From: Candidatus Gastranaerophilales bacterium
GTDB lineage: Bacteria > Cyanobacteriota > Vampirovibrionia > Gastranaerophilales > Gastranaerophilaceae
Direction of reading: 5' to 3'
DNA: 64,000 bases
Assembly: GCA_944325105.1 (NCBI GenBank)
Contig: CALUYW010000001.1
Coordinates: 62,001 to 126,000, forward strand
The notes under the pieces were generated by a model. That model did no database searches and had not been told where the DNA came from. It saw nothing but the letters and a program-made list of their open reading frames with translations. Shown here in pieces: positions 223 through 60,119 of this stretch (the first letter of the stretch is position 1; every line of letters starts with the position of its first letter). The translations under genes were made by a program, and so were the position numbers.

Positions 223-1047
223 CTACTCGCCTGTATCTTGGGTTATATAGTATCTGTCATCAAGGTTAAGTTTTTCACCTTGATACAAAATGGCGTCTAA
301 AAGATTGAAAAAGTATTCCCTTTTTGCGTCAATAAAATCCTGACCTTTTTTCTGCCAGTTAGAACCTGCTCTGTAGTGTAAAATAAAATCTTCTATTGCC
401 TGTATACTATACTCATCATCATAATTTGCTCTGAATTTTTCAGGCAGTACGGCTTTTCTTTCTCCTTTTATATGAAAAGTGTGTTTCATATGTCTTATTT
501 TAAGGTTCGGGTTTCTTAAAAGCCATTTAAAGAGCTTTCCGCCCGTATCTGTTCTTTGAGTTTTTGTTTTGTATATAGACATTGAAAAATAATTTTTATC
601 GGGTAGTTTTTGACCTCTGAAAATCAAAATGCCGTTCCATAAAAACTCTACTCCGCCTCTGAATTGGTGGATGCCGCAGATGTCATTATCGCCTAAGTAT
701 TCGTTAAATGATATGTCATGTGTTAAGAACATGTCAGAGTCAATCAACACATGGATAGTGTCTTTTTCCCATCTGAAGTGCCTGTGAAAACCGTAGTTTA
801 TGCCATAAGCCGTAATATAAGACGCCCCCGAAACAAGAGTTCTAAAGGCTACATTCAGACACTTTACGTTGTTTTCTTTGCAAAATTTCTTTATTTCTCT
901 TTGCCTGTCAAATTTAAAAAACGGCACATTGTTAAATACTACAAATTCCCACTCGGGGTCTTTTACAAACCTTTTAAATGTTTCGTACTGTTTGTATAGT
1001 AACTCCGGTGTTTTATCAGCCCAAGTATATATTTTTACTTTATCCAT
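223..1047 (-). CDS. GT-A-like glycosyltransferase with a DxD motif
   Basis: A 274-residue protein without signal peptide or membrane segment. Residues 98-107 form a hydrophobic strand followed by DSD (D103 and D105), the usual metal and nucleotide-sugar binding motif of GT-A glycosyltransferases. The N-terminus (KIYTWADKTPEL) and the length suit a small sugar transferase acting in the cytoplasm. I do not recognise the exact family, so donor and acceptor are unknown. The ATG has no Shine-Dalgarno but sits 6 nt behind a promoter-like pair, so the mRNA is probably leaderless. The debranching enzyme upstream ends 40 bases before this start, and the gene is probably transcribed on its own. Confidence 0.6.
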   Translation of the reverse strand: MDKVKIYTWADKTPELLYKQYETFKRFVKDPEWEFVVFNNVPFFKFDRQREIKKFCKENNVKCLNVAFRTLVSGASYITAYGINYGFHRHFRWEKDTIHVLIDSDMFLTHDISFNEYLGDNDICGIHQFRGGVEFLWNGILIFRGQKLPDKNYFSMSIYKTKTQRTDTGGKLFKWLLRNPNLKIRHMKHTFHIKGERKAVLPEKFRANYDDEYSIQAIEDFILHYRAGSNWQKKGQDFIDAKREYFFNLLDAILYQGEKLNLDDRYYITQDTGE

Positions 1048-57296: not shown

Positions 57297-58487
57297 TTAA
57301 TTAAGTCCGTTTGTTCCAAGGTGGATTTTTGAGCGTCCGAATTTTTCTTCAATTTTGTCCCAAACATCAGAGAGTTTTTGATTTTTTTCAAGTCTTTGAG
57401 AGTTAAAGACAGATAACTGGCAGGAGTCTTGAGAGCTTAATTTTAGCGCAGTTACGCCGCAGGAGCGGTAGATAATGTTTGGATTGTATATTTCATCAAG
57501 CATTTCTTTAATTTTTAAGTTAAATTCAAACTCAGAGTTTGTAGGGGTTTCAAGAGAAACTTTTGCACTTAGTATGTAAAAATCTTTTGTTCTTAGCATA
57601 ATACTTATTACGCCTGATGTAAGCGAGTGAAATCTGAGCTTCTTGCAAACTCTGTGGCAGTGGTAGTTTAGGGCGTTTATTATGTAGTTTTTATCCGATG
57701 TAAAATTGGCAAAAGAGGCGGTTTTTTGTATGCTCTTTGGAAGTGTTTCGTTTGGATTAACGGGGCTTGTGCACTCACCTAAGAGCTCATATTTTAAATC
57801 CAGCCCGACTTTGCCCATTACGCGCTTAATCCAGGCGTCATTTTGTGAGGTGAAACTGTAGGCGCTTGAGATGTAGTGTTTTCTTAACAGTGCTGCCGTG
57901 TTTGCGCCAACACCCCAGATATCTTCTATTGAAGTGTTTTTTAACTCTTCTTTAATTTCTCTGTAGCCTATTTTGTATGTTCCTATTGAGGAGTCTTTTT
58001 TGTTCAGTTCTTTTGCCTTTTCGCAGGCTAGTTTTGCAAGAGTTTTTGAGTAAGATAAACCTATAGAAACATCTATTCCTATCTCTTCTTTTATATCTTT
58101 TCTTATTTTTTCAATTATTTCTTCATATGAGCACCGATGCAGCCTTCTTGTTCCGCCAAGGTCAAGAAAAGCTTCATCAATTGAATAAACTTCAACTGTT
58201 GGCGTGTAGTCATAAAGTTTTGTCATCACTCTTTTAGAAATTTCATTGTAGCGCGCGTGGTTTCCTGACAGGTAAGTGATATTTTTAAATTGTTTTTTTG
58301 CCATAAAATAAGGCATTCCCATTTTTACCCCAAGGGCTTTTGCCTCGTTTGAGCGTGCAACAATGCACCCGTCGTTATTGGATAATACACATATGGGTTT
58401 ACCTTTAAGCTCGGGGCGAAAGAGTACTTCGCAGGAGGCAAAAAAGTTATTGCAGTCAACAAGGGCTATTACATTGTATTTTGGCAC
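57297..58487 (-). CDS. umuC: DNA polymerase V catalytic subunit UmuC-like (Y family)
   Basis: A 396-residue Y-family translesion polymerase. LVDCNNFFASCEVLFRPEL (9-27) supplies the first metal Asp, LSNNDGCIVARSNEAKALGVKMG follows, and YSIDEAFLDLGG (about 101-112) holds the second Asp-Glu pair. The thumb and little-finger regions continue to the C-terminus, with a beta-clamp-like motif not obvious by eye. The start codon is GTG at 58487, preceded by AAGGAG, and it shares its G with the lexA stop (TAGTG). Its place directly behind lexA means SOS-controlled error-prone synthesis. Confidence 0.92.
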   Translation of the reverse strand: MPKYNVIALVDCNNFFASCEVLFRPELKGKPICVLSNNDGCIVARSNEAKALGVKMGMPYFMAKKQFKNITYLSGNHARYNEISKRVMTKLYDYTPTVEVYSIDEAFLDLGGTRRLHRCSYEEIIEKIRKDIKEEIGIDVSIGLSYSKTLAKLACEKAKELNKKDSSIGTYKIGYREIKEELKNTSIEDIWGVGANTAALLRKHYISSAYSFTSQNDAWIKRVMGKVGLDLKYELLGECTSPVNPNETLPKSIQKTASFANFTSDKNYIINALNYHCHRVCKKLRFHSLTSGVISIMLRTKDFYILSAKVSLETPTNSEFEFNLKIKEMLDEIYNPNIIYRSCGVTALKLSSQDSCQLSVFNSQRLEKNQKLSDVWDKIEEKFGRSKIHLGTNGLN

Positions 58488-59065
58488 TAGAATCTCCTTG
58501 TTATACCTGTTGCAACGCCAAATATTGTAAGAGAATTTTTGGGATAAATATTCCCGTATTGAGGATTTGCCGCCTCAAGCCAGACTTTCTGCCCTTTTTT
58601 GCGATAGGTTTTAAGCGTAAAAGAGCCGTCAATGTTAGCGAGCACTATATCCCCATCCTGCGCATCGGAGGTCTTTTTAATGCTTACATAATCACCCTCA
58701 AATATTCCAAGTTCCACCATAGAATCGCCCGAAACCCTAAAAACAAAGACACTTGGGCTATCCAGTTTTAGCATTTCATCAAAAGAAATTCTCTTATCTA
58801 CAATATCATCAAGCGCATTAGCAAAGCCGGCGCGTACTTTTATGGCAAGCAGTGGAGCGCCTGTGGTGGGTTTAATATATAATCTTCCCGAACGCTCTTT
58901 AACTAAAGACAAGCTTTTTAGAGCTTTTAGGTACTGAGCGATTGAATTTTTTGACTTGTAGCCGAGATTTTCTCTTATAACCTCTAAGCTTGGCAGTGCA
59001 TCTTTTCCGTACGTTTGTGCTAAAAGTTCAAAAAAGTTTTGTTGTTTTTCGGTTAAATTTTTCAT
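58487..59065 (-). CDS. lexA: LexA family repressor/protease
   Basis: A 192-residue LexA-type regulator. Residues 1-65 form the winged helix-turn-helix DNA-binding domain. The self-cleavage site is A79-G80 (VRAGFA), the catalytic serine S115 is in SGDSMVELGI, and the lysine is K152 (FTLKTYR). It should bind its own operator and be inactivated by RecA-stimulated cleavage. No separate umuD gene is present next to umuC, so this protein could also serve as the UmuD partner. A palindrome lies over its own promoter, and the ATG has no Shine-Dalgarno but a -10 hexamer 6 nt upstream. Confidence 0.88.
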   Translation of the reverse strand: MKNLTEKQQNFFELLAQTYGKDALPSLEVIRENLGYKSKNSIAQYLKALKSLSLVKERSGRLYIKPTTGAPLLAIKVRAGFANALDDIVDKRISFDEMLKLDSPSVFVFRVSGDSMVELGIFEGDYVSIKKTSDAQDGDIVLANIDGSFTLKTYRKKGQKVWLEAANPQYGNIYPKNSLTIFGVATGITRRF

Positions 59066-59071
59066 AATATA

Positions 59072-59099
59072 ATTATGTACGATTGTACATAAAAGTCAA
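59072..59099 (-). promoter_or_regulatory. lexA-umuC promoter with overlapping LexA operator
   Basis: On the minus strand TTGACT (-35, 59094-59099) and CATAAT (-10, 59072-59077) are 16 nt apart. A palindrome TTATGTAC-GATT-GTACATAA (59073-59092) fills the spacer and the -10, an ideal repressor position. The -10 ends 6 nt before the ATG, so transcription would start on the start codon. Confidence 0.65.
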
Positions 59100-59153
59100 A
59101 TATTTTTTTCTTATGGTATAATCACTATTGTTATGTTTTTTTAGGATGTTGTC

Positions 59154-60119
59154 ATGAAAATTGCTCAGGTAAGTACTCGTCGCACACAGAAAAATACACT
59201 TAATTTTATAAATAATAAAATTGAGCCAAATGTTCAAAATGTAAAAAAAACTCCTCGGGGTGTTACTTCAAAGGTAAACAATGTTTTTATAGGGATAAAT
59301 TTTTTAATTTTAGCAGTGTGTTTGGCTGAACCTTTTTTAAGAAAAAAAGGTTTGGAGCTTGAAGGTGCGCTTTTGAAAAAAAATATAAATCAAGCAAATG
59401 GTGACATGAGAGGAATTATATCAGGCTTTCAGAAAAAAGCAGATGAAGTTTCAAATTTAATAAAACAGGGTTTTGAAAACTCTTTTGAGGATGTTTATGA
59501 AGATTCAAAGCTGCTAAGAAAGTTTGTGAGTGTTAAAGATTCTAAATTTCCAAAAATTATGGAAGAATACTCTAAAACAAGTGGCGAACTTTTTAGAAGG
59601 ACGGGCTTTTTGGATTCTGAGAATTTTAACAGTGTAGAGTATCGTGGAACTAAAGACTTTTTTGACCTGATAAAAGTAAGGAAAAACAAGCTGCGCGGTA
59701 TATATAATGGTGTTACTAAGAATTCATCAAATAGCGAAACATATGACGCAATGGTTGAATTTTGTCAAAGTGGAAAGGTATTTGCAAAGAATTGTTTTTT
59801 AACAAAAGGTAAAGATGGCAAGAAAACTTTTAAAACGGACAGAGCTTTTGTTTTTATGGGTGAGAATGATAATATAAAATCTGTTTTAAAAAGAATAAGA
59901 TATACGGGCGCTCAAGTTTCTCTCTCAAAATCATTTGTATATAAAAATAATACTTTATCAGGAATTGTAATAGATTCTGTTTTTGAAAATGGTTATTCGC
60001 CTAGTTATATGGAGTTATACAGAAGAAATAAAGAAGGCAAGATGATTGGCATTAAAACTAGAGAATTTGATTTAGAAAATCTTGATGATTATTTTTTGTA
60101 TGAATTTTTTGAGCTTTAA
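59154..60119 (+). CDS. Hypothetical protein with one membrane helix
   Basis: A 321-residue protein, not recognised. The first 40 residues are basic and polar, a hydrophobic helix is at about 45-62 (NVFIGINFLILAVCLAEPF), and the rest is a soluble, mostly helical domain (about 75-170) followed by a strand-rich part (about 200-321). A single N-terminal anchor with a large domain outside or inside is likely. Shine-Dalgarno AGGA precedes the ATG; a TATAAT at 59117-59122 may be its -10. It is divergent from lexA with only 88 bases between the starts. Confidence 0.6.
   Translation: MKIAQVSTRRTQKNTLNFINNKIEPNVQNVKKTPRGVTSKVNNVFIGINFLILAVCLAEPFLRKKGLELEGALLKKNINQANGDMRGIISGFQKKADEVSNLIKQGFENSFEDVYEDSKLLRKFVSVKDSKFPKIMEEYSKTSGELFRRTGFLDSENFNSVEYRGTKDFFDLIKVRKNKLRGIYNGVTKNSSNSETYDAMVEFCQSGKVFAKNCFLTKGKDGKKTFKTDRAFVFMGENDNIKSVLKRIRYTGAQVSLSKSFVYKNNTLSGIVIDSVFENGYSPSYMELYRRNKEGKMIGIKTREFDLENLDDYFLYEFFEL

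Follow-up and report, generated by a model that had tools for sequence, protein, structure and literature searches.

The closest counterparts of the locus described here are damage-inducible repressors of Acinetobacter and of Lactococcus and Streptococcus, together with the LexA proteins of photosynthetic cyanobacteria. UmuDAb of Acinetobacter has a regulon that consists mainly of error-prone polymerases (PMC4807011, PMC7273328, PMC11332147). Its head shares about 10% identity with LexA and has no Pfam hit (PMC4807011), and it uses the box TTGA-N4-GTWAC-N4-TCAA and a corepressor, DdrR (PMC11332147). The HdiR-umuC pair of Lactococcus and Streptococcus is a minimal DNA-damage switch whose repressor regulates its own gene as well as umuC and, in S. 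thermophilus, recA; HdiR clusters with the repressors of phages (PMC8565304). For LexA of photosynthetic cyanobacteria, the box AGTACWNWTGTACT, or RGTACNNNDGTWCB, has been reported (PMC3091678). In our searches, genomes with this LexA often carried a separate UmuD. The papers that we searched contain no account of an SOS operator from gut Melainabacteria. Here, we analyze a lexA-umuC operon and its promoter in a Gastranaerophilales genome, which belongs to a non-photosynthetic sister lineage of the cyanobacteria. By protein similarity, on which we base this assignment, its nearest named relatives are metagenome-assembled genomes of Candidatus Gastranaerophilales / Melainabacteria; the window, i.e., the whole stretch of DNA that was analyzed, is 64,000 nucleotides long (Table 1).

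Table 1. Features of the lexA-umuC locus and of the second operator found in a relative. Positions refer to the window unless a contig is named.
Feature	Position	Strand	Evidence or context
umuC, 396 aa, Y-family polymerase	57297..58487	-	PF00817/PF11799 above cut-off
lexA-like gene, 192 aa, winged HTH and S24 self-cleaving domain	58487..59065	-	TIGR00498, PF01726, PF00717
Lys152 codon, partner of Ser115	58610-58612	-	invariant in 21 relatives
Predicted catalytic Ser115 codon	58721..58723	-	invariant in 21 relatives
Predicted cleavage site, Ala79-Gly80 codons	58826..58831	-	invariant in 21 relatives
Recognition helix region, residues 38-51	58913..58954	-	alignments; helix 39-51 predicted
-10 CATAAT, overlapped by operator	59072..59077	-	sequence; leaderless arrangement, 6 nt to start codon
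Putative operator TTATGTAC-GATT-GTACATAA	59073..59092	.	sequence and conservation in 59 full-length family lexA loci
-35 TTGACT of lexA-umuC promoter	59094..59099	-	sequence; TTGAC/TTGAT/TTGCA in 58/59 relatives
Second perfect operator	L233 (G019:C41) 636-654		gap between recA and divergent N6/N4 DNA methylase gene

The repressor candidate scores 117.2 bits against the NCBIfam LexA equivalog model TIGR00498 (cut-off 110.95), 25.2 against PF01726 (cut-off 23.7) and 84.7 against PF00717. Its head is thus a LexA-type winged helix-turn-helix with PF01726 above cut-off, which sets it apart from both UmuDAb and HdiR. Ser115 and Lys152 are the equivalents of S119 and K156 in E. coli LexA. The best PDB matches of the predicted model are the LexA-DNA complexes 3jsp and 3jso; the individual domains are well predicted, but their arrangement is unreliable (pTM 0.48; pLDDT below 50 for residues 67-103). 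The gene overlaps umuC by one base. The umuC product scores 228.6 bits against NF002955, below the model cut-off of 431. The genome gave no further Y-family match; it does contain a recA gene, a potential trigger. As with UmuDAb, an operon with umuC is found at nearly all family loci, where umuC lies directly 3' of the repressor gene, the exceptions being genus g20 and locus L084. In g20 (L036 and L040, in G082 and G055), a spermidine-synthase-like gene follows the repressor gene, and umuC is located elsewhere with no visible operator.

Direct reading of the promoter region revealed a perfect 8-4-8 palindrome of 20 bases, TTATGTACGATTGTACATAA. On the gene strand, TTGACT is followed by one base, the palindrome overlapping the -10, six nucleotides and the lexA ATG at 59065; the spacer between -35 and -10 is 16 nt. 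As a plain palindrome of LexA-like form within the promoter spacer, the site differs from the UmuDAb box. A preliminary description of this DNA had placed a 20-bp palindrome between TTGACT and the -10 CATAAT, covering the -10, in a leaderless promoter, and our coordinates and layout agree with it. Its proposal that an operator covers the promoter of a LexA-type repressor gene and umuC is likewise supported. Upstream, a divergent 321-aa ORF (59154-60119, + strand) begins some 61 bp away from the operator and has a similarly placed counterpart in G036; it has no match in Pfam or NCBIfam. The operator could affect its candidate promoter, TGGTATAAT (59114-59122).

The half-site ATGTAC occupies dyad positions -8 to -3 (A-8 T-7 G-6 T-5 A-4 C-3), and in this register it can be compared with known LexA boxes. 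The box of photosynthetic cyanobacteria, which belong to the same phylum, has equal dyad spacing and shares GTAC at -6 to -3, but its RGTAC at -7 to -3 has A or G at -7, where T is found here. The in-register count confirms the earlier suggestion that the GTAC core is nearest to this cyanobacterial box. The contrast that had been drawn with the E. coli box, CTGT-N8-ACAG, stands at position -8 (A instead of C), but is smaller than claimed: with CTGT at -8 to -5, TGT at -7 to -5 is common to both. The B. subtilis box, CGAAC-N4-GTTCG, has CGAAC at -7 to -3 and shares G-6, A-4 and C-3; it differs at -5 (A instead of T), and relatives in genus g17 with the half-site ATGAAC come closer to it. All these boxes form a series with equal spacing, and the operator is best regarded as a member of it.

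Perfect 8-4-8 palindromes are no rarity in the window, whose GC content is 36%: it contains eight, compared with 2.6 +/- 1.8 (maximum 8) in dinucleotide shuffles; about 0.0025 are expected per 60-bp promoter. With up to two mismatches, ATGTAC-N4-GTACAT is not enriched within the window (2 found, 1.5 expected). Because of these eight palindromes and the lack of enrichment of the loosened pattern, the palindrome by itself is weak evidence, and the case must therefore rest on comparison between relatives. A protein search gave matches in 39 of 117 family genomes, including four head-less proteins (G110, G061, G088 and G037; genera g27 and g37) and three distant S24 proteins (G008, G010 and G020). 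Full-length loci from the family genomes, together with loci added from further searches, form a set of 59. At all 59, the lexA promoter is covered by the palindrome, a recurrence in the same place that constitutes strong evidence; 58 have a TTGAC-like -35, and in 54 the -10 lies 6-7 nt from the start codon, which supports the leaderless start proposed earlier. On the strength of such footprinting among relatives, a chance palindrome was rejected, although the palindrome taken alone could be expected by chance. In a scan of the 117 family genomes for perfect sites, an ATGTAC or ATAGAC operator was detected in 29, every one of them repressor-positive, with a single operator per genome, located at lexA, and G019 as the sole exception. 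Repressor-negative genomes yielded only AT-rich TATATAC chance matches.

Comparison of the 59 loci further showed that the half-site type corresponds, with zero exceptions, to residues 38 and 43 of the repressor. ATGTAC occurs with Ser38 and Ala, Val or Lys43 (19/19 loci), ATAGAC, in some loci ATGGAC, with His38 and Trp or Leu43 (36/36), and ATGAAC with Ser38 and Trp43 (4/4, two of which have one ATGTAC arm). S38, N40, S41, A43 and Q44 align with S39, N41, A42, E44 and E45 of E. coli LexA, where Ser39 and Glu44 are two of the five contact residues given in PMC3091678; Asn40, the equivalent of E. coli Asn41, is invariant among the 21 aligned relatives. The recognition helix reads KSKNSIAQY here, compared with KSPAPIQSR in photosynthetic cyanobacterial LexA. 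Family f8 of the same class (L291-L295) has a related repressor with the helix KYHNSVQHY and the upstream palindrome TTGTAC-N4-GTACAA. When this form is included, the four half-site types need just three changes on the tree, so that the correspondence rests on few independent evolutionary events.

Since its placement is conserved and its half-site tracks the recognition helix, the palindrome is very probably the operator for the LexA-like repressor whose gene follows it immediately. Binding, repression and RecA-driven cleavage are steps that we infer from these sequences. A repressor dimer on both ATGTAC half-sites would cover the -10 and the spacer and block RNA polymerase, and the lexA-umuC operon would thereby repress itself. 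Upon DNA damage, a RecA filament would trigger cleavage of the repressor at Ala79-Gly80, which would free the operator and allow a leaderless mRNA for repressor and polymerase to be made at once. The best reading of the system, by analogy with UmuDAb or HdiR-umuC, is a self-regulating repressor-umuC module that acts as a minimal mutagenic switch.

Three other explanations were weighed against or alongside this one. That the palindrome serves another regulator, forms an RNA hairpin or is a chance AT-rich symmetry draws on the eight palindromes of the same size in the window, but is very improbable: at all 59 loci, the position, the spacing and the half-site go with this repressor and its helix, perfect sites are absent from repressor-less genomes, and the palindrome would not be transcribed with the gene, since transcription is inferred to start downstream of it. 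More serious, though still unlikely, is the explanation that the protein is a LexA orthologue and the palindrome its classical SOS box, with degenerate sites elsewhere in this genome placing further genes in a wider SOS regulon. It is consistent with the LexA equivalog score, with a GTAC-N4-GTAC core of the kind known from cyanobacterial LexA (PMC3091678) and with G019, a genome of another genus, where a second perfect site (TATAGAC-N4-GTCTATA) is located 168 bp upstream of recA and the regulon is consequently larger. However, when 30 recA promoters were taken from family genomes that encode the repressor but lie outside this genus, 29 lacked a site. Within the genus, the best sites at recA in 13 genomes, that of this study among them, and at uvrA/uvrB in five match 8-10 of 14 bases, which is background. 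The genome itself comprises 28 contigs and 1.76 Mb; apart from the operator, it has a single exact TGTAC-N4-GTACA, within fusA, and 12 of the 13 one-mismatch core sites are within ORFs. The sole intergenic one (L017, G000:C21, approximately 677-1113) is closely followed by a four-helix ORF that resembles bAvd/23S-IVP and may belong to a diversity-generating retroelement. Neither the one-mismatch core sites nor sites with up to three mismatches including the -10 precede an SOS gene in this genome, and on this ground a wide SOS regulon was rejected here. Sites with at least two core mismatches gave 247 forward and 211 control matches, and weak sites of this kind elsewhere in the genome are possible. 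The C-terminal domain, moreover, does not group with that of cyanobacterial LexA: in a tree of 53 C-terminal domains, photosynthetic cyanobacterial LexA forms a separate clade (100/97), and the two C-terminal trees, of 53 and 106 sequences, argue against orthology with it. The regulon of this genome therefore appears, as judged from its sites, to be the lexA-umuC operon alone, far smaller than that of E. coli or B. subtilis LexA and unlike the canonical SOS network in the sense of PMC8565304. An operator can occur near recA, as HdiR control of recA in S. thermophilus parallels, yet a recA-proximal site is found in one genome only and the conserved regulon is lexA-umuC. The conventional SOS regulon expected in the preliminary description is accordingly not supported, and the test that it had set itself, a second copy before an SOS gene, failed in this genome; this test was too strict, because the conserved regulon is a single operon.

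A further explanation is compatible with the operator and adds a second function to the repressor: the same protein may also be the UmuD of this genome, so that cleavage at Ala79-Gly80 would both derepress the operon and yield a UmuD'-like fragment that joins UmuC as a polymerase subunit. We consider this a serious but tentative possibility. In its favor, the genome has no other candidate UmuD or S24 match of its kind, and the one-base overlap joins the repressor gene to umuC. The C-terminal domain also appears to belong to the UmuD side of the S24 family: in the 53-sequence tree, the domain groups with cyanobacterial UmuD and family f8 (96/95), and in the tree of 106 sequences, a 97/94 split places it together with UmuD and with LexA-like proteins of Patescibacteria on one side. 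This placement is only suggestive, because the trees were built without E. coli UmuD and UmuDAb, sequences were sampled by similarity to the Gastranaerophilales family, and in pairwise PDB comparisons the domain scores as well against LexA as against UmuD. In the larger tree, the domain lies beside UmuD and not within it, and the UmuD group is a neighbor of the repressor clade instead of its parent, which argues against the dual role. The head-less relatives point the other way. In genus g27 (L327, L328 and L329, in G061, G088 and G110), the gene starts at a point equivalent to about repressor residue 60; the RAG cleavage site is retained, umuC is adjacent and no operator is present, as would be expected if the C-terminal half acts for UmuC on its own. 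The gene of L330 (G037) is likewise head-less, UmuD-like and beside umuC without an operator, and has also lost the Ala-Gly cleavage site. Against a dual role, umuC homologues are present in 108 of the 117 family genomes, whereas no more than roughly one genome in three has the repressor; in some 65 genomes with a umuC homologue, no repressor-like partner gene was found, and UmuC of this type may therefore not need a partner. The umuC loci inspected in the family genomes have no LexA-like gene upstream; umuC in the family often follows an NFACT/RqcH-like gene, as named from a look at the sequence. It is conceivable, at the same tentative level, that a single protein combines the roles of repressor and UmuD, with a head that re-tunes the operator (ATGTAC, ATGAAC or ATAGAC) and that was shed in one genus to leave a plain UmuD.

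Taken together, the operator, its repressor and their relatives provide a clean natural series of specificity change in LexA-type proteins, in which three half-site types are tied to helix residues 38 and 43 and the Ser-Trp/ATGAAC form combines features of the other two. The family thereby offers a simple testable case of co-evolution between motif and protein. The repressor lineage, moreover, appears to be confined to one mutagenesis operon and bears on the interconversion of UmuD and LexA-like repressors. A repressor that doubles as a polymerase subunit would be the most interesting point of the system: if the dual role is true, a single cleavage event would switch on the gene of a mutagenic polymerase and make the fragment that activates it.
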